A stretch of 11,930 nucleotides of DNA from Deltaproteobacteria bacterium (lineage in GTDB: Bacteria; Desulfobacterota; Desulfobacteria; Desulfobacterales; ETH-SRB1), in contig QMMZ01000021.1 of NCBI GenBank assembly GCA_003647525.1, positions 1-11,930 of the forward strand. The letters are read 5' to 3'. The position numbers and the translations under genes were made by a program. The notes beneath the pieces were generated by a model that saw only the letters and a program-made list of their open reading frames with translations, was not told the DNA's origin and did no database searches. This document shows, piece by piece, positions 1 to 11,930 of this stretch; the stretch's first letter is position 1, and each line of letters opens with the position of its first letter.

Positions 1-882
1 GGACTCTATGATTCCGGAAAAGTTGATAAAATAATAAATGATTTCCGCAAACAAAATATTATATTTGAGGATGATGGGGCGCTATGGTTTAGAACTAAAG
101 ATTTTGGAGATGAGAAAAATCGTGTTGTTGTTCGTAATAATGGTCTGACAACCTATTTTGCTTCAGATATAGCTTATCATCAAGATAAGTTTGATAGAGG
201 TTTTGAAAGAGTTGTCGATGTTTGGGGAGCTGATCACCACGGATATATTCCCAGAGTATCAGCCGCAATTGAGGCTTTAGGTTACGGCAGAGACAAATTT
301 AATGTTATTCTGATTCAACTTGTCAATCTGCTGCGCGAAGGAGAACCTGTTGCGATGTCAACCAGGGCAGGCGAGTTTGTTACTCTCAGAGACGTAATCA
401 GGGAAGTCGGCAGTGATGCGGCAAGATTTATTTTTTTAACGCGCCATTATGAGAGTGCACTTGATTTTGATCTTGAACTTGCCAAAAAGAAAACAAACGA
501 TAACCCTGTGTATTATGTTCAATATGTGCATGCCAGGATATCAAGCATTGCCCGGAAGGCACAAGAAAGGGGAATAAGTGATATAGCCTGGAATGATGCT
601 GCAATATCCAGGCTTACTGAACCTGAGGAAATACAATTAATTAAGACTATGGCGCGTTATCCCGAGATAGTAAGGTGCAGTGCGGAGTATATGGAACCCC
701 ACCGGATCACGTATTATCTGATGAATCTTGCATCAGCTTTTCATGCCTATTATAATAAACACAGAGTGCTTACAGATGATGCTGAATTGACCATTGGAAG
801 ACTTTATCTCGTGCTTGCGATTAAAAAGATAATCCGAAACGGTCTATCACTGCTCGGCGTGTCTGCACCTGAAAAAATGTGA
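1..882 (+). CDS. argS: Arginyl-tRNA synthetase, C-terminal part (5' end outside window)
   Basis: Charges tRNA-Arg with arginine in the cytoplasm; class I aminoacyl-tRNA synthetase. The frame is open from base 1 to the TGA at 880-882, about 293 codons, so roughly the first half, including the HIGH motif, lies upstream. Visible in order are the catalytic-core segment with WGADHHGY (near 226-249), then the KMSKS-loop equivalent AMSTRAG (352-372), followed by [19 protein letters not shown] and [12 protein letters not shown], typical of the ArgS anticodon-binding helical domain. The tail has the usual AFHAYYN segment. The KMSKS loop has Ala where Lys is usual; ArgS enzymes are known for degenerate versions of this loop, so this is not a sign of decay. 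The downstream SPOR gene starts on the stop codon, so the two are probably co-transcribed. Confidence 0.97.
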
Positions 883-1550
883 TGAAGAATAAAAAAGATA
901 AAAAAAAGCCTTCTCTTCAATTTATTCCTAAAGAGCCTTCAGTCTGGATTTTTTTGATTATTTTTGTTTCCGTATGGATGTTTGTTTTAGGTGTTCTTGT
1001 GGGGAGGGATACGGCTCCTGTAAAATTTGACATTGAGAAACTTCAGAAAGAATTGGTTGCTTTAAAAGAAGCGGCTATCAAGAAAGAGCAAAAACTTTTT
1101 AAAATTGATTCAGATGTGGTTAAGAATGAAACAGATTTTGGCTTTTACGAGGCGCTGAAAGAAACCAAAAAAGATAAGAATAATGAAGCTGGTATATCTA
1201 AAAAACAAGCAAAAAAACATCTGTCCAACAATAAGACTGTAAAAGTTAAGAAAAAGGTAATTCCCGACAAATCTAAAATAATAAATAAAGACAAGCAAAA
1301 AAACTTAACAGAAACTGATAAAAAACTTACAATCCAGGTTGCATCTTTAAAGGATTCAAAAGATGCTGATGAAATGGTGGCAAAGCTTAGGGGAAAAGGG
1401 TATCCTGCTTACAGGATTTCAAGAAATATTCCTGAGAAAGGTATCTGGCACAGAGTAAGGATAGGTTATTTCAAAGATAAGGCAGAGGCCGGCAGTACTC
1501 TTAATAAGTTAAAAAAGGAAAAGTTTAAAGCGTTTCTGGTAAATAGATAG
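882..1550 (+). CDS. SPOR-domain inner-membrane protein (FtsN-like architecture)
   Basis: A 222-aa bitopic membrane protein. A short Lys-rich cytoplasmic tail (1-20) leads into a transmembrane segment (about 21-41, VWIFLIIF to GVLVG). A long Lys-rich, probably disordered or coiled periplasmic linker (about 50-147) follows, ending in a SPOR domain (about 148-222) with LTIQVASL, the K/YPAYRI strand and HRVRIGYF. SPOR domains bind denuded-glycan peptidoglycan, usually at the septum, so a cell-wall or division role is likely. The ATG at 882 shares one base with the argS stop (TGATG); a GTG three bases upstream (879) is an alternative start that overlaps argS by four bases. Either way translation looks coupled to argS. 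The argS-SPOR pairing recalls gene order in Desulfobacterota. The exact function is not known from sequence. Confidence 0.88.
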   Translation: MKNKKDKKKPSLQFIPKEPSVWIFLIIFVSVWMFVLGVLVGRDTAPVKFDIEKLQKELVALKEAAIKKEQKLFKIDSDVVKNETDFGFYEALKETKKDKNNEAGISKKQAKKHLSNNKTVKVKKKVIPDKSKIINKDKQKNLTETDKKLTIQVASLKDSKDADEMVAKLRGKGYPAYRISRNIPEKGIWHRVRIGYFKDKAEAGSTLNKLKKEKFKAFLVNR

Positions 1551-1610
1551 GGATCGGGTGTCAGGTGTCGGGAATCAGGGGATAGAGGACAGGGTATTAG
1601 GAATCAGGAG
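1551..1610 (+). repeat. G-rich iterative intergenic repeat ending in the gatC ribosome binding site
   Basis: The gap between the SPOR gene and gatC is almost entirely made of degenerate G-rich units. GGTGTCAGG and GGTGTCGGG lie back to back near 1557-1573, and GGAATCAGG occurs twice (1571-1579 and 1600-1608). The last unit runs into AGGAG (1606-1610), which sits 6 bases before the gatC ATG and appears to serve as its Shine-Dalgarno sequence. There is no inverted symmetry and no coding potential. It resembles simple heptamer-like intergenic repeats seen in some bacterial genomes, but this was not verified. Confidence 0.6.
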
Positions 1611-1616
1611 AGATTA

Positions 1617-1904
1617 ATGAAAATTACTAAAGAAGAAATAGTTCATGTTGCGAATCTTGCCCTGCTTGATCTGGATGAAGAGTCCATCGGCAAGTTTGCT
1701 GGACAAATAGATAATATACTGAAATACATTGATATACTCAATCGTGTTGACACCGAAGGTGTGGCCCCGACTTCACATGCGATTTTTCTGACCAATGCTT
1801 TTCGTGAAGACAAAGTAAAAGAGCATCTTGATAGAAATAAAGCTCTTGCAAATGCTCCTGAAAAAGAGGATGGGAATTTTGTGGTTCCGAAAGTTATAGG
1901 TTGA
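1617..1904 (+). CDS. gatC: Aspartyl/glutamyl-tRNA(Asn/Gln) amidotransferase subunit C
   Basis: GatC is the small (95 aa, normal length) scaffold subunit that wraps around GatA and GatB in the GatCAB amidotransferase, which converts misacylated Asp-tRNA-Asn and/or Glu-tRNA-Gln to the amide forms. The sequence has the family's N-terminal helix (ITKEEIVHVANLALLDL), the FAGQIDNILKYIDILNRVDT helix, the VAPTSHA turn, and the C-terminal NAPEKEDGNFVVPKVI tail. The ATG at 1617 is preceded by AGGAG at a 6-base spacing. gatA follows after 16 bases, so the two form one operon. gatB is absent from the window and must lie elsewhere. Confidence 0.95.
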   Translation: MKITKEEIVHVANLALLDLDEESIGKFAGQIDNILKYIDILNRVDTEGVAPTSHAIFLTNAFREDKVKEHLDRNKALANAPEKEDGNFVVPKVIG

Positions 1905-1920
1905 AAAGGATCAATAGAAA

Positions 1921-3381
1921 ATGAATCTTTATGAACTTACTATACATGAAGCCCACAATCTACTAAAAAACAGAGAAATATCTTCACAGGAGCTGACAAA
2001 AAGCGTTCTTGATCGAGTTGAGTCTGTGGAACCGCGTGTGGGGGCATATATCACTGTTGCGGGTGAAACAGCGATGGCTCAGGCGGAACTTGCCGACAAA
2101 GCTATTGCAGAAGGCAATATTACACCCCTTACGGGCATACCTTTGGCTATAAAAGATCTTATTTGCACAAAAGCTCTTCGTACTACCTGTGCATCAAAAA
2201 TTCTTGAAAATTTTGTGCCCCCTTATGATGCATTTGCAATAAAAAAGCTGAAAAAAGCAGGTGCAGTAATTGTGGGAAAGGTGAACATGGATGAATTTGC
2301 TATGGGTTCATCTACAGAGCACTCAGGCATTCAACTGACAAATAATCCATGGAATTTATCATATATTCCCGGAGGTTCAAGCGGAGGGTCAGCCGCGGCT
2401 GTTGCTGCTGATATGTGTTTAGGGTCTCTGGGTTCAGATACAGGTGGATCAATAAGGCAGCCCGCTTCTCATTGCGGAGTAGTTGGCATGAAACCTACAT
2501 ACGGAAGAGTTTCACGTTTTGGCCTTGTAGCCTTTGCTTCTTCGCTTGACCAGATTGGCCCCCTGACAAAGGATGTTACGGATTGTGCTGTATTGATGAA
2601 TGCTATTTCCGGTTATGACGATAGAGACTCCACATCAGTGCCGATGGATGTGCCTGATTATACAACATTTCTTAAAGAAGGATTAAAACGGGTTAAAATC
2701 GGCATTCCAAAGGAATATAATGCATTGCTCGGGCTGGATGCTGAAGTTTCAAAAGCAGTAAAAAATGCAGTAAAGACCATTGAGAGCCTTGGCGCTGAAT
2801 GTATAGAAGTCTCTCTTCCACATACTGAATATGCGGTTGCTGCCTATTATGTTATTGCTCCTTCAGAGGCCAGTTCAAATCTTGCCAGATATGATGGTGT
2901 AAAATATGGGTTAAGAGATAAAGGTAAGAATGATCTTATAGAGATGTACAGAAGCACAAGATCGATGGGATTCGGTTCCGAGGTCAAGCGTCGTATAATC
3001 ATAGGGACATACTGCCTTTCAGCCGGTTATTACGATGCATATTATAAGAAGGCTTCTCAGGTACGTACATTGATTATAGAAGATTTTAAAAGAGCATTTA
3101 AATCCTGTGATGTGTTGTTATCTCCTGTAGCGCCGACGCCGGCCTTTAAAACAGGAGAAAGAACAGAAGATCCCCTGAAGATGTATCTATCCGACATATT
3201 TACTCTTTCGGCAAATCTTGCAGGGATACCTGGTATGTCGGTTCCATGCGGATTTTCAACACAAGGACTTCCAATAGGCCTGCAGATAATGGGAAAACAT
3301 TTTAATGAGGAAAAAATAATTAAAATAGCATACAATTTCGAGCAGGCAACAGATTTTCACAATAAAAAGCCTAAGTTATAG
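1921..3381 (+). CDS. gatA: Aspartyl/glutamyl-tRNA(Asn/Gln) amidotransferase subunit A
   Basis: Catalytic amidase subunit of GatCAB: hydrolyses glutamine and passes ammonia to the GatB active site. It is 486 aa, full length for the family. The amidase-signature Ser-cisSer-Lys triad is complete: K78 (GIPLAIKD), S153 in [10 protein letters not shown] (151-160) and S177 in [12 protein letters not shown] (171-182). The [22 protein letters not shown] block and the C-terminal [13 protein letters not shown] and [10 protein letters not shown] blocks are also typical. The start ATG follows an AAAGGA at 1906-1911 with a rather long spacing. The TAG stop (3379-3381) overlaps the left tip of an inverted-repeat element. 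Removing that element would restore TTA-TAA, so the protein end would be unchanged. Confidence 0.97.
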
Positions 3382-3480
3382 ACTTTCAGATAATTAATTT
3401 CACAAGGCCGGAAGGAGGAAGGCGTATTAGTTATACGTCGACGACTGATAACACAGTGAAATTATTTATCTGAAAGTCTA
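3379..3480. mobile_element. 102-bp near-perfect inverted-repeat element (MITE-like or structured repeat) at the gatA 3' end
   Basis: The arms 3379-3403 and 3456-3480 are inverted copies matching at 24 of 25 positions, beginning TAGACTTTCAG and ending CTGAAAGTCTA. The 52-base interior has a second hairpin (GGCGTAT at 3421-3427, loop TAGTT, ATACGTC at 3433-3439, one G-T pair). If the outer TA pairs (3379-3380 and 3479-3480) are taken as a target duplication, the element is 98 bp, GAC...GTC. Deleting it with one TA joins gatA directly to AAAGGA, the ribosome binding site of the next gene, and leaves a TAA stop in the same place. A TA duplication is typical of IS630/Tc1-mariner elements. No transposase is present, so if mobile it is non-autonomous. 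It could instead be a structured RNA or 3'-end hairpin; it has no T tract for intrinsic termination. Confidence 0.6.
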
Positions 3481-3493
3481 AAGGATAAAAAAC

Positions 3494-3670
3494 ATGAGTG
3501 TTCAACCAGAAGGTGAAGAAATAAGAAAGGCGGTTAAGTGGGTTTCTGAGCATAGGAAGTTTGAGCCGGGAAAGGACCTGAATAAAATTATAGAGGAAGC
3601 TTGCATCAAATTTGACCTTTCTCCAAAGGAAGCGGAATTTTTGCGGCGCTTTGTTCTTGATAAATCGTAA
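3494..3670 (+). CDS. Small hypothetical protein, 58 aa, between gatA and mutL
   Basis: An ATG at 3494 with AAAGGA (3480-3485) 8 bases upstream opens 58 codons ending in TAA at 3668-3670. The protein starts MSVQPEGEEIRKAVKWVSEH and ends in a segment with FDLSPKEAEFLRRFVLDK. It is charged, with no signal peptide or membrane segment. It is predicted to be two or three amphipathic helices, the last resembling a small helical nucleic-acid or protein binding module. The clean ribosome binding site, coding-like codon use and position in the operon argue that it is real despite its length. I do not recognise a named family. It follows gatA on the same strand and may be co-transcribed with gatCA, or separated from it by the inserted inverted-repeat element. 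Confidence 0.72.
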   Translation: MSVQPEGEEIRKAVKWVSEHRKFEPGKDLNKIIEEACIKFDLSPKEAEFLRRFVLDKS

Positions 3671-3682
3671 CACTTTAGCGCT

Positions 3683-3709
3683 TTGAAATATATCCGCTTC
3701 AGGTATAAT
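3683..3709 (+). promoter_or_regulatory. Candidate sigma-70 promoter upstream of mutL
   Basis: TTGAAA (3683-3688) and a perfect TATAAT (3704-3709) are separated by 15 bases (16 if TTTGAA is used). They lie in the gap between the 58-aa gene and mutL, with the start site expected near 3716. This would give mutL its own promoter. The -10 match is strong, but the spacer is short. Confidence 0.45.
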
Positions 3710-3721
3710 CAAATTCAAACC

Positions 3722-3817
3722 ATGAAAAACTCACGTATAAGACATCGTAAAGAAAGAATCGGCCACAACTATAAAGAAATTTTGGCTAAACGTGTCCCAA
3801 ATAAAAATACTTCCTGA
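3722..3817 (+). CDS. Possible 31-aa basic leader peptide overlapping the mutL start
   Basis: The ATG at 3722 opens 31 codons to the TGA at 3815-3817, in a different frame from mutL and overlapping its first 26 bases. The product, from MKNSRIRHRKERIGHNYKEI to the end, is very basic. There is no Shine-Dalgarno sequence; if the promoter candidate at 3683-3709 is used, the ATG lies about 6 bases from the transcript start, so translation would be nearly leaderless. The mutL GTG also lacks a clear ribosome binding site, so translation through this ORF could expose it. It could equally be a chance ORF. Confidence 0.25.
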   Translation: MKNSRIRHRKERIGHNYKEILAKRVPNKNTS

Positions 3818-5501
3818 AATTCTTTCCAATAAGATAGCTGCCGGCGAAGTCGTGGAACGGCCTTGTTCGGTTGTCAAGGAACTCATAGAAAATTCACTGG
3901 ACGCAGGCAGCACAAGAGTTATAATCGAAATTGGAAACGGCGGTTTGTCTCTGATGCGGGTTTCTGACAATGGCATTGGAATGAACCATGATGATGCACT
4001 CCTTTCCCTGGAACGCTATGCAACCAGTAAAATCTATAAGGACAGAGATTTATTTTCTATAAATACACTTGGTTTTAGAGGTGAAGCGCTTCCCAGCATT
4101 GCCTCTGTTTCCAGATTTTCTCTTATCACAAAAGATGAAATATCCGAAGCCGGCACAGAGGTCTTTGTAGAGGGAGGAACAATAAAAAGGGTCGCTGAAA
4201 TCGGTGCTCCAATGGGCACAATGATAACTGCCAGGCATCTTTTCTTCAATACTCCTGCCAGACGGAAATTCTTAAAGACAGTAAAAACAGAAATGGGGCA
4301 TATTGTAGAAACTGTTGCAAATATTGCATTGGGATGGCCTGATGTCCAATTTAAACTATATCACAATGAAAAAACAGTTAAAAACTGGTACTCATCGTCT
4401 GATCCGTTTAGCAGAGTCCTGGATGTTGTCGGAAATGATATGAGAAATGATCTTTTAAAAATCAAGGTTGAAGACAGGTTTGTTTCCGCCGAAGGATGGA
4501 TTTCATCTCACCGGGTTTCAAGAAAAACTTCCAGGGGAATCTCTCTATATATAAACGGCAGGTTTGTACGGGATAGAGGAATACAGCGAGCTCTTTTTGA
4601 AGGATATGCAGGAAGATTGATCAAGGGGCAGTTCCCTGTTGCGGTTATTTTTATAAAGGTGCCCTGTGACCAGGTGGATGTAAATGTTCACCCAACAAAA
4701 CACGAGGTTCGTTTAGCACAGCAAAAACAGGTTCATAAAGCATTGACAGGGGCTGTATCAGAAGTACTGCATACAACTGACAGGCCAAAATGGAGTGCGG
4801 AAAATTTTTCCGGACAAAAGCCTTTTTTGGTTTCAGAGCCTGTTGCCCAGTACAACAAATCCATCAAAGATATTCCTGATTCTCCTGCTATACAGAAAAG
4901 TCTCTGGGAGGAAAGGCGTTTTAGTGATTTAAGGGTAGTTGGTCAGTTTCATGATACATATATACTGTGCGAATCTGATGAAGAACTGGTGCTTATTGAT
5001 CAGCATGCAGCTCATGAGCGGGTTCTTTTTGAGCATCTGAAAAAACTTTCCATGAATTCAAAAATAGAAATTCAGAAACTTCTAATGCCTGAAACCATTG
5101 ATCTCGGATATAGAGAAGCACACATGCTTGAGAATCTTATTCCGGATCTGAAAAAACTTGGACTTGAAATTGAGCCTTTTGGCGGAACGACTTTTGTGGT
5201 TAAGTCTGTTCCTGCTATTCTTGCAGACAGGGAGATTAAGCCGATTGTGTTGGAAATTGCGGAGAAAATGCTGGAATCCGGTTTAACGCAAGGTCTGGAG
5301 AAGACAATTGATCAATGCCTGATGCTTATTGCCTGCCATGGAGCAATCAGAGCGAATCAGCGGCTTTTGGATAAACAGATAATGGCTCTGCTTGCGCAGC
5401 TTGATGAATGCGAAAACCCGTCACATTGCCCTCACGGACGTCCCACCTGGATAAGCTGGACTTTAGAATCTATAGAAAAATCCTTTAAAAGAATTGTGTA
5501 A
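3792..5501 (+). CDS. mutL: DNA mismatch repair protein MutL, endonuclease type
   Basis: MutL couples mismatch recognition by MutS to strand incision and excision. At 569 aa it has the N-terminal GHKL ATPase with E30 and N34 (VVKELIENSLDAGST), DNGIGM (59-64), TLGFRGEALPSI (92-103), FNTPARRKFLK and NVHPTKHEVR, then a short linker. The C-terminal dimerisation/nuclease domain carries DQHAAHE followed by E at +5 (403-414, the DQHA-X2-E-X4-E metal motif), ACHGAIR (514-520), CPHGRP (546-551) and F-K-R (565-567). These are the nicking-endonuclease motifs of MutL from organisms without MutH. The GTG start is forced: it places IAAGEVVERP at the usual distance, and the frame upstream has no ATG before the TAA at 3738-3740. 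No good Shine-Dalgarno precedes it. Confidence 0.97.
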   Translation: MSQIKILPEILSNKIAAGEVVERPCSVVKELIENSLDAGSTRVIIEIGNGGLSLMRVSDNGIGMNHDDALLSLERYATSKIYKDRDLFSINTLGFRGEALPSIASVSRFSLITKDEISEAGTEVFVEGGTIKRVAEIGAPMGTMITARHLFFNTPARRKFLKTVKTEMGHIVETVANIALGWPDVQFKLYHNEKTVKNWYSSSDPFSRVLDVVGNDMRNDLLKIKVEDRFVSAEGWISSHRVSRKTSRGISLYINGRFVRDRGIQRALFEGYAGRLIKGQFPVAVIFIKVPCDQVDVNVHPTKHEVRLAQQKQVHKALTGAVSEVLHTTDRPKWSAENFSGQKPFLVSEPVAQYNKSIKDIPDSPAIQKSLWEERRFSDLRVVGQFHDTYILCESDEELVLIDQHAAHERVLFEHLKKLSMNSKIEIQKLLMPETIDLGYREAHMLENLIPDLKKLGLEIEPFGGTTFVVKSVPAILADREIKPIVLEIAEKMLESGLTQGLEKTIDQCLMLIACHGAIRANQRLLDKQIMALLAQLDECENPSHCPHGRPTWISWTLESIEKSFKRIV

Positions 5502-5510
5502 TAAATAAGT

Positions 5511-5653
5511 AACCGTTCACGGTTAACAGTTTGCAGTTAACGGTTGATCAAAACATAATAGCAAGGGGCTCAGTTGTGAGAACTCAAGAATTGAGAACAA
5601 TATCAAATATGCTTCAATTATTACAAAATTCATTAAAAAAACCGTGAACCGTG
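5511..5653. repeat. Intergenic inverted CCGTGAAC-type repeats after mutL
   Basis: Just after mutL, AACCGTTCACGGTT (5511-5524) is itself a dyad around a 2-base centre. It is matched in inverse orientation by AACCGTGAACCGTGG at 5640-5653 (12 of 13 bases). Between them lie GTTAAC twice (5522-5527, 5536-5541), a small hairpin CTCAA-GAA-TTGAG (5583-5595) and no ORF with coding character. The pair frames about 140 bp and may be a degenerate repeat element. There is no U tract, so it is not an obvious mutL terminator. Confidence 0.45.
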
Positions 5654-5719
5654 GAAAACCTGGGCAGTTACAAATAACCACATATAACATTTTATATTTA
5701 TTGTAAAAGTATAAAAAAC

Positions 5720-5748
5720 TTGACATTTATCTTACAACTTAGTAAAAA
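5720..5748 (+). promoter_or_regulatory. Candidate sigma-70 promoter for the porin at 5922
   Basis: A perfect TTGACA (5720-5725) in very AT-rich DNA is followed 17 bases later by TAAAAA (5743-5748), a poor -10. A 7-bp dyad, CTTACAA (5731-5737) with TTGTAAG (5758-5764), spans the -10 and could be an operator. A second possible -10, TATAAT at 5808-5813, has no good -35. The rest of the 420-bp gap between mutL and the porin is AT-rich with no RNA gene that I recognise. Confidence 0.4.
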
Positions 5749-5837
5749 AATTGAATTTTGTAAGCAGAGCCCATTTGTTAATAATCATATTAAGATATTA
5801 AGTACTATATAATAGTTTTGTCTTTATTTCGCTTAGA

Positions 5838-5847
5838 AAGGAGGTGA
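5838..5847 (+). promoter_or_regulatory. Perfect Shine-Dalgarno sequence in the porin leader without a clear ORF
   Basis: AAGGAGGTGA is fully complementary to the 16S rRNA 3' end but lies about 75 bases before the porin ATG. It opens a purine-rich stretch (5835-5879) that contrasts with the AT-rich surroundings. The only starts after it are a TTG at 5857 giving 6 codons and a GTG at 5844 (inside the motif) giving 17. The porin has its own AAGGAG (5910-5915), 6 bases before the ATG. It may be a leader-peptide site, a ribosome standby site or an RNA structure element. Confidence 0.45.
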
Positions 5848-5921
5848 AGAGGGGGCTTGATTGGACGGAAGGTGTAGGGCAAACGGTTATTTTATAAATT
5901 TGGCTACTTAAGGAGAAATTT

Positions 5922-7016
5922 ATGATGAAGAAATTATTTGTTATTTTATCAGCAACAATGCTTGCAATTGTATTTGCAGTCCCTGCCGGTGCAACAACAG
6001 ACTGGGATTTTTATGGAAGCGTGCGGATGCAGACTTTTAGAGTGGATCAGGATAAAAATGCTAGTGCAACTGGTTACGACGATGAAGATTCTAGATGGGA
6101 TCTCAATACTGTTTCGCGTATTGGCGCAACAGTACAGAATGGCGATATAGGCGGTCGTTTTGAATATGGTATGAATGATAATAGTACTGATGCTGATGAC
6201 GTTGCCTTACGTAGACTCTACGGAACCTGGAATTTTGGTCATGGTGAACTGCTTATAGGAAAAGAATATACACCCATTCATTTTGTTACAAACCAGGTTT
6301 ATGATAATGACTATGGTTTGAGAGGCTTTGGTGGATTCTTTACATTTCGGCCCATGATTCAGGTTAAGATTGACGGCTTTAAACTGGCATTAATAAAGCC
6401 AGGGACAGGACGTACTATCCAAACCACAACGGGTGGCACTGAAACGGCAGCAGATCTTGATACTACACTCCCCAAGATCGAAGCAAGTTACACTCTTGCT
6501 CTGGATAACGTCAGCTTAAGAGTTTTTGGCGGTTACAATCAATTTGATGCCGTCGATGATTTGGATAATGATTACGATATTACCAGCTATATCTATGGTG
6601 TTGCTGGAGTAGTTAATACGGGCCCTGTAACATTAAAGGCTATGATCTGGGGCGGCCAAAACATAGACACTTACGGACTTACCAATGATCCTGAGGCAGA
6701 TGCTGCACCTAAGCTCGATATAGACGAAGATAAAATTAAAGACAATGACGGTTACGGCGGTATAGCATCTATAGGCGCTAAATTTAACGATATGGTTGGT
6801 GTCGAGGCCGGAGTTGGCTATATATCCTTTGAAGATGATATCGACGGTGCTGAAGCTGATGAAGTTCTGGCTGCTTATCTCCAGGCACCAATTACACTGG
6901 CACAAGGCGTAACCGTTGTTCCTGAAATCGGTCGTTATGATTATAAGGACGATGGAAGTGGTGCAGATCAAGGCGATGAGACTTATTTTGGCGCAAAATG
7001 GCAGATCAACTTCTAG
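5922..7016 (+). CDS. Porin-like outer-membrane beta-barrel protein
   Basis: A 364-aa exported protein. The signal peptide is clear: MMKK, a hydrophobic stretch (5-20) and cleavage after PAGA (about residue 24). The mature part starts TTDWDFYGSVRMQTF and consists of alternating strand-like segments with many Asp, Gly and Tyr, and acidic loops such as DEDKIKDNDGYGG. It ends in GAKWQINF with the C-terminal Phe that marks outer-membrane barrels for BAM assembly. Length and style match general porin-like proteins of Desulfobacterota; the substrate cannot be read from sequence. The start at 5922 has AAGGAG (5910-5915) upstream; ATG 5925 is an alternative. It is a single-gene unit, ending at a strong terminator (7044-7076), and converges on a second, unrelated-looking porin gene. 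Confidence 0.85.
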   Translation: MMKKLFVILSATMLAIVFAVPAGATTDWDFYGSVRMQTFRVDQDKNASATGYDDEDSRWDLNTVSRIGATVQNGDIGGRFEYGMNDNSTDADDVALRRLYGTWNFGHGELLIGKEYTPIHFVTNQVYDNDYGLRGFGGFFTFRPMIQVKIDGFKLALIKPGTGRTIQTTTGGTETAADLDTTLPKIEASYTLALDNVSLRVFGGYNQFDAVDDLDNDYDITSYIYGVAGVVNTGPVTLKAMIWGGQNIDTYGLTNDPEADAAPKLDIDEDKIKDNDGYGGIASIGAKFNDMVGVEAGVGYISFEDDIDGAEADEVLAAYLQAPITLAQGVTVVPEIGRYDYKDDGSGADQGDETYFGAKWQINF

Positions 7017-7043
7017 TCATTTAAAAAAACATTTTACGATAAT

Positions 7044-7076
7044 AAAAAACCCGGGCCAAATTGACCCGGGTTTTTT
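7044..7076. terminator. Bidirectional intrinsic terminator between two convergent porin genes
   Basis: AAAAAACCCGGG (7044-7055) pairs with CCCGGGTTTTTT (7065-7076) around a 9-base loop. The 6-bp GC core has T runs on both strands, so it can end transcription of the + strand porin (stop at 7016) and of the - strand porin (stop at 7103). Confidence 0.93.
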
Positions 7077-7102
7077 TAGTTAGGTTGGTTATACAAGATT
7101 CT

Positions 7103-8341
7103 TTAGAATACGAACTGTAAGGTGAGACTGTAGTCAGTGAAAGAGTCTTCTTTGTTCTCGGCTACTAGATAATCTTTTGCACCATCCTTATATTTTACAT
7201 TATCAAGACCAAGAGATATCCATGCAGAGTATCCCTTGAAGTAGTAATTAAGAGCAACTGACAAACGATCAGACTTAGCATCTTTATTATCATAAGCCTT
7301 ATCTGACTCCATTCTCTCAAATTTTGCCCCAATAGCAGGTTTTCCAATACCAACCACCTTATCATAAAGGAGTTGCCCCTGAACAAACCAGAATGCACTA
7401 TCTTGGGCTTTATCATCAATTCTATGAGTCTCTTTTGCCTCAATATATCCAAATCCCAAATTAGGGACTACACTACCAAATTTCTTTTCAAAAAATGCAT
7501 CAACAGCATACAACTCATTGTCAAGACCCTCATATATCTCTTCCATGGAATATCCTGCACCAATAGTTAATATATCTTTTTTCCCAAGATAAGAATCTTT
7601 TCTTGTTCCTTTAAGTGAGGATTCGGGTTTAAATCCTAACATGGTAGGAGTAAATGCAAGCCTTGCTGTGTATCTGAGACCTTTATAGTTATGATCTTCC
7701 CCATCCTTTTCGTAATGACTCTCATTGTGAGGTTGATTAAATAAACCTATGTGATATCTGAGCATCCCGTCAACAGGATCTCCATAAAACACAACACCCG
7801 GCTCTCTAATATTAAGAGCGGTCTTATTTACATTAAGGTCAAGAGCACCTTTAAATACCTCATGGACATCATACCTATAGAAATAGTCAGTAGCAATTAT
7901 TTTACCGTAATCAGATCTTTGGTGATATCTGCTGACAGGTATACGAATCCTCCCAAATCTTACCTTAAATTCAGGAGCAAATAAAAAATTCATCCCTGTC
8001 TCTTTCATAACGACTCCATCTTTTTTGTAACCTGATTGGTCAGTTCCATTTAATTTTAATGGTTTATAAACACACTCCCATTGGGTAAAGAACTGAATTA
8101 AATCGTTAATCTGCCCTTTAACATAAAATTCTGCCTCTGTAAGTTCAAAATAGTTCTTACGATAATCTATGACGTCACTTCTTTTATCAAAATTCTTATA
8201 AGACAACTGACCCCTTACAGCAAAATCAGCCCAGGTATCCTCATCAACTTGAACCTTAAACGCATCAGAAGTTACAGCGCAGCTTAAAACCAAAGCCACT
8301 GCAATACTCAGGACCTTCCATAAACTTACTTTCATCTTCAT
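7103..8341 (-). CDS. OprP-like (Porin_O_P-type) outer-membrane porin
   Basis: A 412-aa exported barrel protein. The start is set at the ATG at 8341: AAGGAG (8349-8354) lies 7 bases upstream, and this start gives a proper signal peptide (MKMKVSLWKV, hydrophobic 10-22, cleavage after TSDA, residue 27). The longer frame up to 8404 adds 21 charged residues and is rejected. The mature chain has the FAVRGQLSYK opening strand, the block with KVRFGRIRIPVSR that recalls the phosphate-selective porin O/P family, many Tyr/Trp girdle residues and a terminal LTLQFVF with C-terminal Phe. It probably carries anions or small solutes across the outer membrane; the ligand is unknown. It lies 62 bases after a receiver-only regulator on the same strand, so the two are probably co-transcribed. 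The lipobox-like VLSC in the signal peptide is a weak match and is not favoured. Confidence 0.82.
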   Translation of the reverse strand: MKMKVSLWKVLSIAVALVLSCAVTSDAFKVQVDEDTWADFAVRGQLSYKNFDKRSDVIDYRKNYFELTEAEFYVKGQINDLIQFFTQWECVYKPLKLNGTDQSGYKKDGVVMKETGMNFLFAPEFKVRFGRIRIPVSRYHQRSDYGKIIATDYFYRYDVHEVFKGALDLNVNKTALNIREPGVVFYGDPVDGMLRYHIGLFNQPHNESHYEKDGEDHNYKGLRYTARLAFTPTMLGFKPESSLKGTRKDSYLGKKDILTIGAGYSMEEIYEGLDNELYAVDAFFEKKFGSVVPNLGFGYIEAKETHRIDDKAQDSAFWFVQGQLLYDKVVGIGKPAIGAKFERMESDKAYDNKDAKSDRLSVALNYYFKGYSAWISLGLDNVKYKDGAKDYLVAENKEDSFTDYSLTLQFVF

Positions 8342-8348
8342 AATTTTT

Positions 8349-8354
8349 CTCCTT
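8349..8354 (-). promoter_or_regulatory. Ribosome binding site that fixes the OprP-like porin start
   Basis: AAGGAG on the - strand, 7 bases before the ATG at 8341, supports the internal start over the upstream in-frame ATG at 8404. Confidence 0.85.
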
Positions 8355-8403
8355 TTTAATTGAAATTGTTCCGTACAAATATTTTCTAGTTTTCGTTCGG
8401 GCA

Positions 8404-8784
8404 CTACCTATCTACATTTAATAAACGTTTCAAAGAATCCTCAATGGTTTCAGATGTAAAAGGTTTTTCAATACAATCATGTATGCCCATATTCAAGGCT
8501 TTTGCAAACAGTTCTTTGCTTCCATACGCGGTTATTAGTATCTTAACAGCTTCAGAATTTAGTTTATCAGCTTTTTTAAAAAATTCCATACCATCAATAC
8601 CGGGCAGTTTGTAGTCAGCAATAATTATATCAAAGCTTTCATTAATTAAAGCTTCAAGAGCATCTTCGGCACTTCTAAGCGTTTTCAGATAACAACCTTC
8701 ATCTTCAAAGTACATACTCATTGAATCCCTTATCCACTCATCATCATCTATTAGTAATATTCTCAAATTTTTAATTAATTTCAT
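8404..8784 (-). CDS. Single-domain response regulator (CheY-like receiver only)
   Basis: A 126-aa protein made of one receiver domain. The acidic pocket is D13-D15 (LLIDDDEW), the phospho-acceptor is D57 (IIIADYKLPGIDGMEF), the switch Thr is T85 (ILITAYGS) and the conserved Lys is K107 (IEKPF). All catalytic positions are intact, and there is no output domain, so it must act through a partner protein or as a phosphate sink or relay. The Shine-Dalgarno before the ATG at 8784 is weak. A sigma-54 promoter candidate lies 100 bases upstream on the same strand, and the OprP-like porin follows after 62 bases, suggesting a two-gene unit. The partner kinase may be the one truncated at the window end, since the NtrC-like activator of that pair has its own receiver. 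Confidence 0.93.
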   Translation of the reverse strand: MKLIKNLRILLIDDDEWIRDSMSMYFEDEGCYLKTLRSAEDALEALINESFDIIIADYKLPGIDGMEFFKKADKLNSEAVKILITAYGSKELFAKALNMGIHDCIEKPFTSETIEDSLKRLLNVDR

Positions 8785-8883
8785 TTTTTCAAATAACTTA
8801 ACCTTGATACCGTTTTCCCCTTAGATCCACTCAGATGCGAGTTTCAGAGCTTGAAAGCTTTATATGTTTTGAAAATATTAATT

Positions 8884-8899
8884 AGCATTAAACATGCCA
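8884..8899 (-). promoter_or_regulatory. Candidate sigma-54 (-24/-12) promoter for the receiver-porin unit
   Basis: On the - strand, TGGCATGTTTAATGCT matches the sigma-54 consensus TGGCACGRNNNTTGCW with exact GG-N10-GC spacing and three mismatches outside the GG and GC. Transcription would begin near 8873, leaving a leader of about 89 bases before the receiver gene. A sigma-54-dependent activator is encoded about 1.5 kb away in the same locus. The match is by eye, so a chance hit in AT-rich DNA is possible. Confidence 0.55.
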
Positions 8900-8982
8900 T
8901 TATTGAGCCTTAAAGATAAAAGCTTTAATTTCAAATAATTAGTTTATCAACAATATTTTTCAAATTTATTTTTTTACTAAAA

Positions 8983-9018
8983 AATAGAAAAATTTCTATA
9001 TTTAAATAGAAAAATTTC
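8983..9018. promoter_or_regulatory. Two tandem palindromic sites 22 bp apart, possible activator binding sites
   Basis: AATAGAAAAATTTC occurs at 8983-8996 and again at 9005-9018, a period of 22 bp (about two helical turns). Each repeat is the core of a dyad: TAGAAA-AA-TTTCTA at 8985-8998 and a one-mismatch version at 9007-9020. On the - strand they lie about 85-135 bp upstream of the sigma-54 promoter candidate, the usual position for enhancer sites of NtrC-type activators. A TATCAA (8945-8950) between them and the promoter loosely resembles an IHF site. An alternative is that the AT-only hairpins followed by a T run are a weak terminator of the lipoprotein gene. Confidence 0.4.
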
Positions 9019-9027
9019 CACTTCCTT

Positions 9028-10314
9028 TCACTCCAAGTTTTTATGGAGCATTTCTCCAGTCCTGCAGAATTGCTCCAGGGATTGCTCAATGCACGACATT
9101 TTTTTGTGGTGATCCCAGTCAGTGTAATGTGCGATGAATTTATTGCCGCGTTCCGTTGTGGCAGTGAATGTGTGAGTCCAGTTTGCTTGTGTGCCGCCAT
9201 TTCCATTCGGCTTCAAGGTGATGTCCACTTTCAAAACATAAAAATCGAAACTGAACACTGTGAATTCAATGGCGCGGGGAGCGTCATACCGGGTAACGAC
9301 CCAGATCATTTTTCCGCGATGGGGATAATCGGTTTGAAAAACACAATTGTTTTCAGCTAGGCCGGAATCTGAATAGATCATGTCACTTTTCCAATCTTCG
9401 AGCCATTCGTGCCTGCGGGTCGGGCACAATTGCGGAAATAATTCTTCAGGGGGAGAAGAAAGGTTCATGGCATACGTCTTCACTATTCGATTGGCCTTGA
9501 ATGCCGTCATCTGGGTAATCTCGGCGGCTGCCGGGACCTGTTTCTCATGATCTGGTTCCCATATCTTTAAGCCGACCAAGCTTAATCCTTTTGAGATTGC
9601 GCCATCTAAACTTTGGCGTAGTTTTTCCGCTAATACGGCAGCGCTCTTATTTTCAATAGTTAACAAGGCCTTTTCTTTGACCTGGTCCTTGTAGCTATCT
9701 TTAAAGTACTCAGGGGCGACAAACTCGTAATCGAAGCTCTTCTTCACCATTACTTTTTTGAATGGTTTGGGTGTAATAAGTTCAAAGCGTAAATTGCTAT
9801 ATAGAGCTGTAGTCGGCGCACTTAACAGAGTGAAGCATTGATACAAACCGTAACCCGGGAGACGTTCTTCGCTATGCCCGACATAGTCTTCATGATATGT
9901 ATTGTATATTACTAAAAATGTATCGATTCCCTTGTCTCCCGCTAATTTGGCCAGGTAATCTTCGACATATTCGGAATATGTACCGTAACCAGGCTCTGGA
10001 TTGTTATATGCTTCTAACAGCGGCGCTTTTTCATAGGATAATCGTTTAACAATGTAGCTGTTCTGTTTTAAGTTGTCTTCTGTTTTTGTAACAACAAAAT
10101 TATCTATATCCCATTCGGAAACATCCGCGGTGCTATGTCTGTTGCCGAAAACCGTCGGTCCTATGTAGTTTATATTCAGCGTGTCGCCCAATACAGATAG
10201 TACGGCAACCGTGCCTAATTCGTCAGAAGGAGTAAGATCTTCAACACTTGCAGGAATGGTGGCACATGCCGGCAAGGCAAGTAGCACAAATAAGAAAAAT
10301 AATCTTGCTTTCAT
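9028..10314 (-). CDS. Lipoprotein with unknown N-terminal domain fused to a C-terminal SRPBCC/START-like domain
   Basis: A 428-aa predicted lipoprotein. The start at 10314 is preferred over the in-frame ATG at 10326: it follows GGGAGG (10319-10324) and gives a clean lipoprotein signal, MKARLFFLFVLLALPAC, with C17 as the lipidated residue and Ala at +2, which favours the outer membrane. Residues about 18-265 form a domain that I do not recognise (TVAVLSVLGDTLNINYIG; a long acidic middle). Residues about 272-428 look like a complete SRPBCC/polyketide-cyclase-like ligand-binding fold: FPQLCPTRRHEWL, MIYSDSGLAENNCVFQTD, a WVVTRYDAPRAIEF strand, TLKPNGNGGTQANWTHTFTA and a C-terminal helix ending in TGEML. 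Such domains usually occur alone in the cytoplasm. The gene is more GC-rich by eye than its porin neighbours. It follows the NtrC-like gene by 40 bases on the same strand. Confidence 0.75.
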   Translation of the reverse strand: MKARLFFLFVLLALPACATIPASVEDLTPSDELGTVAVLSVLGDTLNINYIGPTVFGNRHSTADVSEWDIDNFVVTKTEDNLKQNSYIVKRLSYEKAPLLEAYNNPEPGYGTYSEYVEDYLAKLAGDKGIDTFLVIYNTYHEDYVGHSEERLPGYGLYQCFTLLSAPTTALYSNLRFELITPKPFKKVMVKKSFDYEFVAPEYFKDSYKDQVKEKALLTIENKSAAVLAEKLRQSLDGAISKGLSLVGLKIWEPDHEKQVPAAAEITQMTAFKANRIVKTYAMNLSSPPEELFPQLCPTRRHEWLEDWKSDMIYSDSGLAENNCVFQTDYPHRGKMIWVVTRYDAPRAIEFTVFSFDFYVLKVDITLKPNGNGGTQANWTHTFTATTERGNKFIAHYTDWDHHKKMSCIEQSLEQFCRTGEMLHKNLE

Positions 10315-10318
10315 AGAA

Positions 10319-10324
10319 CCTCCC
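10319..10324 (-). promoter_or_regulatory. Ribosome binding site that fixes the lipoprotein start
   Basis: GGGAGG on the - strand lies 4 bases before the ATG at 10314 and inside the longer reading frame that begins at 10326. It favours the downstream start, which directly begins the lipoprotein signal peptide. Confidence 0.7.
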
Positions 10325-10354
10325 ATAGAGCCATTCGGGCTATTTTTTGTTGTA

Positions 10355-11737
10355 TTAGTTAAGTTTATTCCTACGGTAACGAAAGGTGTGATAGTTTATG
10401 TTCAGGAGTTTTGCTGCTTTGCTTTCATTGCCTCCAGTCATCTTGAGCGCTTCTTTGATATAAAATTTTTCTAAAGATTCCTGAAGAGATGAAAGATTAA
10501 TGCCGGCAGGTGTAAGCACTGGAAAACATGGTATATTTCTGTCTGGCTTGTTAATTTCCCCACTATTAACCCAATCTATTCCAAGATCCTGGAGTGTCAG
10601 CTCTGGCCCCTTTCCGGTAAGCACCCCTCTTTCAACAAGATTTTTCAGCTCACGTACATTGCCTACCCAGTTGTATTCTTTCAAGACCTTTTCAGCTTCT
10701 GGGGCAATACCTGTAAATGTTTTGTCGAATTTCTTGCTGAATTCGTATAAGAAATGCTTGGCAAGAGAAATAATATCTCTGCGGCGTTCCTTCAGCGAGG
10801 GAATCTGCACCTTGATAACTCCCAGCCGGAAATAGAGATCTTTTCTAAGAAGGCCTTTATCTACCAGTTTTTTTATGTCTTTGTTTGTGGCGGAGACCAC
10901 TCTTGTTTTAATTTTAAGTTTTTTTGTACTGCCTATTCTGTAAAATTCGTTATATTCAAGAAAACGGAGAAGTTTTGCCTGGGCGTCCAGGCTCAGGTCA
11001 CCTACTTCGTCGAGAAACAAGGTGCCATGCTCTGCTTCTTCAATTAATCCCTTTTTGCCGGATATGTTAGCTCCGCTAAACGCTCCTTTTTCATAACCAA
11101 ACAACTCGCTTTCAATAAGTTCTTTTGGAATGGCCGCACAGTTTACGGTAATCAAAGGGCCATTGAAGCTGGGGCTTCTGGCATGTATGGCGCCGGCAAT
11201 TAATTCTTTGCCCGTACCTGTTTCTCCCAGGATAAGAATGGGGGTGTCAGGGCTTTTCGCCACTGTTTCTATAAACTCCACCACATCCTGAATTGCGTTG
11301 CTTTCTCCTATAAAGCAAGGAAGGTTTTCCTTGAAATATTTATCCTGAAGAGATTTAACTTCTTTTCTAAGCCTGATAGTTTCAAGTGCATTGCTGATAA
11401 TTATTTCTAATTCATCCATGTGAATGGGTTTCACCACATAATCATAGGCCCCAAGTTTCATGGCAGAAATTACAGTTTTGATATCTTCATAGGCAGTTAT
11501 CATTATTACCAGAATTTCCGGGCAAAGCTTTTTGATCTCGCGTAGAGCATTAATACCATTAATCCCCGGCAGTTTGATATCAAGAAGAATAAGGTCCGGA
11601 GGGCCGCTTTTAATGGCCTTGATTGCTTTTTCGGCTGAGGGAAATGCATTTACCTTGTAATCAGACCCAAGGGCCATGGTTATCCCTTCCCTTATGACCG
11701 GCTCGTCGTCGATTATGAATATGGAGTATGAAATCAT
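10355..11737 (-). CDS. NtrC-family sigma-54-dependent response regulator (AtoC/ZraR-like)
   Basis: A 460-aa transcription activator with three domains. The receiver (1-115) has D10/D11, phospho-acceptor D53, T81 and K103. The AAA+ sigma-54 interaction domain (about 141-370) has Walker A GETGTGKE (171-178), the sigma-54 contact loop GAFSGA (218-223), Walker B GTLFLDEVGD (238-247), arginines at 298 and 304, and sensor II GNVRELKN (359-366). A Fis-type helix-turn-helix lies at the end (NESKAAKLLNINYHTFRYRR, 437-456). The contact loop has Ser for the more usual Thr of GAFTGA, a tolerated variant. When phosphorylated it should remodel RNA polymerase-sigma-54 at a -24/-12 promoter. Its ATG overlaps the stop of the upstream kinase gene by four bases (ATGA), a typical cognate pair. 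The likely target in view is the promoter candidate at 8884-8899. Confidence 0.96.
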   Translation of the reverse strand: MISYSIFIIDDEPVIREGITMALGSDYKVNAFPSAEKAIKAIKSGPPDLILLDIKLPGINGINALREIKKLCPEILVIMITAYEDIKTVISAMKLGAYDYVVKPIHMDELEIIISNALETIRLRKEVKSLQDKYFKENLPCFIGESNAIQDVVEFIETVAKSPDTPILILGETGTGKELIAGAIHARSPSFNGPLITVNCAAIPKELIESELFGYEKGAFSGANISGKKGLIEEAEHGTLFLDEVGDLSLDAQAKLLRFLEYNEFYRIGSTKKLKIKTRVVSATNKDIKKLVDKGLLRKDLYFRLGVIKVQIPSLKERRRDIISLAKHFLYEFSKKFDKTFTGIAPEAEKVLKEYNWVGNVRELKNLVERGVLTGKGPELTLQDLGIDWVNSGEINKPDRNIPCFPVLTPAGINLSSLQESLEKFYIKEALKMTGGNESKAAKLLNINYHTFRYRRNKLN

Positions 11738-11930
11738 CTTTGTTTTTTTCTTCTTTCCAGCGGAAGCTCAATCTTAAATTCAGCTCCGCCCCATTTACTG
11801 TCAAACACGCCCAGAGATCCACCGTGGTCTGTAATTATTCTGTGGCAGATGCTGAGCCCAATTCCGGAGCTGTCGTTTTTAGTAGTAAAAAACGGATCAA
11901 ATATTCTGTCTTTAAGGCTGGAAGGCACAC
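11734..11930 (-). CDS. Sensor histidine kinase, C-terminal end only (5' part outside window)
   Basis: The last 65 or so codons of a histidine kinase, reading off the window edge. The HATPase_c F-box DPFFTTK and G2 box GIGLSICHRIITDHGG are clear, followed by the final ATP-lid strands (GAEFKIELPLE) and a basic tail ending KKQR. A GTG at 11926-11928 is simply a Val codon inside the domain, not a start. The N and G1 boxes, phospho-acceptor His and sensor region are beyond the window, so the signal cannot be inferred. The stop overlaps the start of the NtrC-like gene by four bases, so the two are translated together and are almost certainly cognate partners. Confidence 0.93.
   Translation of the reverse strand, partial: VPSSLKDRIFDPFFTTKNDSSGIGLSICHRIITDHGGSLGVFDSKWGGAEFKIELPLERRKKQR

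Follow-up and report, generated by a model that had tools for sequence, protein, structure and literature searches.

The subject of this report is a gene in an 11,930-nucleotide stretch of DNA (referred to below as the window) from a Deltaproteobacteria bacterium of the Desulfobacterales (contig QMMZ01000021.1, positions 1 to 11,930). The gene encodes a lipoprotein-like half followed in the same frame by an SRPBCC domain, and this frame is a conserved gene fusion, present in a few uncultured deltaproteobacteria. The gene and its parts are as follows:

9028..10314, minus strand: fusion gene, 428 codons plus stop (frame, relatives and nucleotide comparison)
10319..10324, minus strand: GGGAGG, resembling a ribosome-binding site, 4 bases 5' of the ATG (read from the sequence)
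10264..10314, minus strand: signal peptide with lipobox LPAC and Cys17, residues 1-17 (sequence; Cys17 invariant in all seven aligned fusion rows)
9556..10263, minus strand: N-terminal domain (residues 18-253), related to a stand-alone lipoprotein family (profile and alignment)
9511..9555, minus strand: variable linker, residues 254-268 (7-residue insertion in P0006)
9508..9510, minus strand: Met269, matching the first residue of stand-alone SRPBCC relatives (alignment)
9031..9510, minus strand: SRPBCC/START-like helix-grip domain, residues 269-428 (Pfam scan, relatives, model and fold comparison)

The fusion gene and its copies

The frame begins with an ATG at 10312-10314, runs through codons 10314 to 9031 and ends with a stop at 9028-9030. 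An earlier description of this DNA, the sequence-only reading, had reported one uninterrupted frame here and gave no strand; it lies on the minus strand, and translation of the window shows many stops in the plus-strand frame from 9028. That reading had also proposed looking for homologues with the same domain order. When about 5.8 billion proteins were searched (E <= 0.01; 6576 candidates, with length limits that left out single SRPBCC proteins), six of them came up, 428-438 residues long, with query coverage of 99-100% and identities of 70-95%, and two of the six are already annotated as "SRPBCC family protein" in their source records. A scan of genome contigs located the gene at four loci, three complete (L001-L003) and one, L004, cut at a contig end. 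Protein P0001, whose contig is as long as that of L002, is taken as the same gene as L002; there are then nine complete copies (the window, P0001, P0002-P0006, L001 and L003), all with the same order and nearly equal length. Two further copies are cut at contig ends, one in genome G004 (pieces on contigs C260 and C136) and one in G694 (residues 1-245, in L023). A viral collection contained no relatives of the fusion or of two N-type proteins, and PADLOC and Rfam gave no matches.

The genes in the window, L001, L002 and L003 each have 1284 nucleotides without the stop codon, no internal stops and no length changes; therefore, an indel introduced near 9500 during assembly is very improbable. An assembly or stop-loss artefact is rejected given the nine complete copies, which keep the order and nearly the same length.

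The two halves and their separate relatives

By sequence comparison, residues 269-428 correspond over their full length to a large family of stand-alone SRPBCC proteins, as the sequence-only reading had recognized. Searches with length limits that left fusions out gave 530 stand-alone matches to this segment. It is kin to recognized SRPBCC members: among the 120 relatives listed, 26 carry a precomputed PF10604 assignment, and one relative, P0008, scores 32.0 bits against the PF10604 cut-off of 27.4. A model of residues 271-420 has a pLDDT of 90-98 and displays the helix-grip fold, a curved sheet around a long C-terminal helix. Structure prediction of the halves, which the sequence-only reading had suggested, gave a confident model for the C-terminal half and a low-confidence one for the N-terminal half. 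The first structure model, made from seven rows, reached a pLDDT of 34.8, and the rows of the alignment VIA-align span residues 273-421, so that the N fold is barely covered. This low-confidence N-terminal model has both strands and helices.

The N-terminal half was correctly described as unrecognized, since it has no Pfam or NCBIfam match apart from one hit at E 0.15, put down to chance, in a single row of the seven. Profile searches of genomes led first to L009, a distant stand-alone lipoprotein, next to L012 and then to larger sets, and this sequence evidence assigns the half to a lipoprotein family without a name, other members of which stand alone in the same class and in Variovorax. The stand-alone lipoproteins L012, L009, L025, L026 and L018 (Variovorax) are related to the N half, lipobox Cys included; they differ from the fusion in having no SRPBCC domain and are only 14-23% identical to its N half. 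Complete stand-alone members are about 240-280 residues long with a lipobox at the start, and none of those scanned scores above a Pfam cut-off. With signal peptides cut and fusion rows kept out of the stand-alone profile, a comparison of seven fusion rows with 14 stand-alone rows gave a match of probability 97.8 (E 7e-13; 154 columns, residues 34-188), while the best of 40 column shuffles reached 2.2. It replaces an earlier comparison (probability 100) that was partly circular because two of its 16 profile rows were fusions. Residues 189-253 align with the stand-alone C-termini in the multiple alignment only. Against solved structures, the N profile scored no better than expected by chance; its top hit, at E 0.15, was to a signal peptide. 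Possible kinship with CsgG, LpoB or GNA1162 was also considered: the hhalign probabilities of 31, 24 and 28 fell to 1.2, 0.3 and 0.7 when the N rows, LpoB and GNA1162 were compared without their signal peptides (CsgG was used untrimmed), and the trimmed scores of 21.4, 15.5 and 18.1 compare with 21.1, 17.1 and 17.2 for the best of 39 column shuffles.

The N family was found in nine of 194 genomes of one order at E <= 0.01, two of the nine being false, and in 18 of 389 genomes of the class at E <= 0.001; five of the 18 are complete or cut fusions, and the interrupted matches in G232 and G681 are among those counted. Weak matches (L010, L013 with internal stops, L029 and L030) were not counted as members. 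Two Variovorax plasmids also have the family (tblastn with L012, 2e-7 and 8e-7; profile, 6e-16 and 4e-15), and the plasmid search gave no match for the window N half or L025.

The window protein has what is expected of a bacterial lipoprotein, a signal peptide with a lipobox ending in Cys. The lipobox, residues 14-17, is LPAC in the window, just as first described, and LSAC in P0003-P0006 (four of the seven rows). An Ala at position +2 after the lipobox Cys is a signal for outer membrane sorting; we predict lipidation at Cys17 and, given this Ala, sorting to the outer membrane.

Met269, downstream of the linker, is conserved in five of the seven fusion rows and is lost in P0004 and P0006. In an alignment of 99 of the 120 listed C-type proteins, its column is the start of most stand-alone members, which is where the sequence-only reading had placed the beginning of a stand-alone SRPBCC gene; 16 of the 99 rows have their first residue far upstream, either an aligner effect or a real extension.

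The distribution of the two families bears on the origin of the fusion. Among the 389 genomes of the class, the C family is present in 64 (E <= 1e-6), and 11 genomes have both families. Three of these 11 have them fused in frame (G001-G003), G004 has pieces at contig ends, and seven have separate N and C genes on different contigs (G081, G148, G230, G232, G251, G681 and G758). The sequence-only reading had suggested looking for genomes in which the halves are separate neighboring genes: they are separate in these seven genomes, and no neighboring pair was seen. All 16 loci that matched both profiles are the fused frame, and none of 14 regions around stand-alone halves contains both.

The C-domains were placed in a tree of 93 rows, which used 27 loci and 60 of the stand-alone proteins (120 listed) and left out FUS_P0003. 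Its six fusion rows form one clade (support 100/96) among stand-alone proteins. Because of this clade, a single fusion event is the simplest reading, and the fusion, with its unusual domain order, is probably of single origin. Of the two possibilities first raised, a true lipoprotein-SRPBCC fusion and two ancestral genes that became joined, both are supported: the order is conserved in the nine complete copies, the halves exist separately elsewhere and Met269 coincides with the stand-alone start column. A lipoprotein gene and a downstream stand-alone SRPBCC gene would have been joined once by loss of the intervening stop, and the old start codon would survive as Met269.

Elsewhere in the printed tree, export-like N-termini occur in three separate positions, judged by eye: P0057, P0022, and P0105 with P0122. 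The count of three is read from a tree whose deeper forks are partly unsupported, and an automatic count, which omitted unlabelled rows, gave one change. An internal Met makes the true start uncertain for P0022 and for the group of P0057. P0105 and P0122 are stand-alone SRPBCC proteins, P0122 with a lipobox-like Cys, and by eye they look like a separate route of the SRPBCC domain out of the cytoplasm.

Genomic surroundings and possible mobility

The neighbors of the fusion gene in the window are as follows:

11737..11930, minus strand: C-terminal part of a histidine kinase, truncated at the window edge (matches residues 188-251 in the second kinase fragment from L001 with 100% identity)
10355..11737, minus strand: NtrC-type sigma-54 response regulator, a non-conserved neighbor (domain and locus comparison)
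8982..9018, minus strand: A/T-rich palindromic repeats in tandem, immediately past the fusion gene (similar repeats lie directly after the L002 NtrC gene end)
8404..8784, minus strand: stand-alone receiver domain (domain and locus comparison)
7103..8404, minus strand: porin-like protein (ExtI model 45.6 bits, below the cut-off of 150)

The window and L001 share the order kinase, NtrC-type regulator, fusion, receiver and porin, with only the kinase end inside the window. The L001 kinase is split over two frames (L001:4947-6478), by a frameshift or an assembly error. Beyond these two loci the pattern is not kept, and the fusion gene has five different kinds of surroundings in six genomes. A porin is also near the gene in L002 and L003; in L003 it lies upstream, and there is no kinase, NtrC or receiver match in the 12.8 kb covered. 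In G004, toxin/antitoxin-like genes follow the fusion gene and a dapA-like gene lies 2 kb upstream of it (both by eye), and G694, where only one side of the gene is visible, has a dus-like gene nearby upstream. The conserved flanks are short, from about 12-33 bases 5' of the ATG to about 20-35 bases past the last codon. Around the stand-alone halves, 14 regions examined by eye have no broadly recurring neighbor, and close pairs share a patatin-like gene (L129 and L130) or two flanking genes (L135 and L141).

In L002, positions 1940-2052 match the window up to the NtrC stop and positions 2050-2096 match the sequence just beyond the fusion gene, so the NtrC 3' end abuts the A/T-rich repeats in a junction without the fusion gene. 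The fusion gene itself lies upstream of that junction, with an inverted-repeat stretch (1632-1942) between. Because the junction exists without the gene, the preferred reading is that the fusion gene was inserted into the regulator-porin unit in the window lineage and does not belong to that unit; the alternative is a rearrangement in L002. The stretch at L002:1632-1942 consists of nested inverted repeats (outer arms of 19 nucleotides, inner arms of 25) over about 310 bases, next to an NtrC gene remnant, and looks like a small mobile element.

In the G001 family, the gene is present in two of 17 genomes. G003, G004 and G694 are outside those 17 and carry similar copies, with identities to the window copy of 94-96% in G003 and G004 (for the parts present) and 77% in G694. 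This suggests that the gene has spread horizontally, the alternative being mis-binning of the metagenome assemblies.

Some other features of the window were also noted. A sigma-54-like site, TGGCATGTTTAATGCT (8884-8899, minus strand, 2 mismatches), precedes the receiver and porin genes together with the repeats at 8982-9018; it is identical in L001 and similar in L002 (3 mismatches), and is a plausible target of the NtrC-type regulator. Window-wide, 16 such sites with <= 3 mismatches were counted against 13.0 expected, and 46 of 200 shuffles had as many, which is chance level. Between convergent porin genes, a strong palindrome with T runs (7044-7076) has counterparts in L001-L003 and looks like a terminator working in both directions. 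The second of these porins (5922-7016; L001:11412-12431) is 90% identical in L002 and 58% in L001, while the MutL end next to it is about 95% identical in both, so this porin reads as fast-changing or replaced.

Predicted function and comparison with known proteins

Most of what is known of SRPBCC/START-like domains concerns cytoplasmic binding proteins and enzymes. The statement of the sequence-only reading that such proteins are mostly cytoplasmic fits this family in general but not throughout: by eye, seven of the 120 listed stand-alone relatives have export-like N-termini, and MxaD, discussed below, is periplasmic. In the fusion, the exported lipoprotein half (residues 1-253) would tether the complete SRPBCC domain (269-428) through the short variable linker; lipidation at Cys17, with Ala at +2, would hold the protein at the outer membrane, and the domain would fold in the periplasm and bind a hydrophobic small molecule. 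Such binding is what one would expect by analogy with other Bet v 1-fold proteins. We consider it fairly probable that the protein anchors a pocket for a hydrophobic ligand in the envelope, on the periplasmic side. It would then be a tethered carrier, store or binding protein and not a sensor for the neighboring kinase. The fuller picture, of a tethered periplasmic carrier of lipids or small molecules that arose by one fusion, is held at the outer membrane by a lipoprotein from an undescribed family, and whose free-standing gene has since moved between families of the class into unrelated surroundings, is offered tentatively.

Several observations weigh against this prediction. The lipobox departs from the usual consensus: position -2 is Pro in the window, and position -1 is Thr in L001. 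The Pfam lipoprotein model does not match the window protein. That protein is also below the PF10604 cut-off of 27.4, with 21.2 bits as a whole and 23.7 for its C-terminal half. The N domain model is poor, with ten-residue mean pLDDT values of 69 or lower and most below 50. Glu301, conserved in the family, is Arg or Lys in all seven fusion rows; because of this replacement, the fusions may differ from the family in the pocket or in what it does. P0127 is a truncated relative of 211 residues. Finally, the dN/dS ratios, which are below 1 in both halves in all six pairs of the four complete genes (0.24-0.47 for N, 0.19-0.88 for C), are built on few changes, 9-34 differences per half.

Three other explanations were weighed. 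It is unlikely that the fusion is a recent, dispensable and decaying gene without a selected function of its own: its sparse and scattered occurrence, its changing surroundings and the truncated P0127 would fit decay, but near-constant length down to 70% identity, conserved motifs and dN/dS below 1 in both halves do not. Somewhat less likely still is a dual product, in which reinitiation at Met269 would also yield a free cytoplasmic SRPBCC protein. Met269 does stand at the ancestral start column, and a weak GAG lies 9 bases 5' of it in all four genes compared; however, the Met is lost in two relatives, and by eye none of the four genes has a good ribosome-binding sequence before it. Equally doubtful is the proposal of the sequence-only reading that the protein senses a ligand for the adjacent kinase/NtrC pair or hands one over to the porin. 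What speaks for it is that, in the window as in L001, the gene lies some 40 bases past the NtrC gene and ahead of a receiver and a porin gene, and that L002 and L003 have porins nearby. The link is not supported because the gene has five different surroundings in six genomes, among them L003 with no kinase, NtrC or receiver match in the stretch covered and G004 and G694 with other neighbors, and the L002 junction of NtrC end and repeats exists without it.

The predicted envelope-anchored pocket is preferred, and the fusion provides a clear case of an SRPBCC domain that by all signs was moved out of the cytoplasm through gene fusion. Relatives of both parents persist as genes of their own, and the former start codon can still be recognized. 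Use of the SRPBCC pocket outside the cytoplasm may be more common than assumed, because export-like N-termini appear at three other places in the tree. In addition, the lipoprotein half defines a family without a matching Pfam or NCBIfam model.

Known systems resemble the fusion in part. CsgG, LpoB and GNA1162-like proteins (PF03783, PF13036 and PF05643) are envelope lipoproteins, which the N half may resemble in the mixture of strands and helices of its poor model. The PF10604 Polyketide_cyc2/SRPBCC stand-alone members with the FPLLCPVREYEW motif agree with the C domain in motif, length, start and fold; they mostly lack an export-like N-terminus, whereas the domain of the fusion follows a lipoprotein and has Glu301 replaced. 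We found no paper on a lipoprotein-SRPBCC fusion, judging by titles and the beginnings of abstracts. The C domain is a known fold for which a periplasmic precedent exists. In the MxaD report, MxaD of Methylobacterium extorquens is a 17 kDa periplasmic Bet v 1-fold protein that stimulates methanol oxidation, and Bet v 1-fold proteins are described as binding hydrophobic ligands (PMC2577659). It thus has in the periplasm the type of fold proposed for the fusion there, a likeness drawn from its description. The sterol carriers BstA, BstB and BstC of Methylococcus, as described in their report (PMC10942540), are likewise envelope proteins that bind a hydrophobic ligand, as proposed for the fusion; unlike it, they have other folds, form a multi-protein system and have had their ligand demonstrated.
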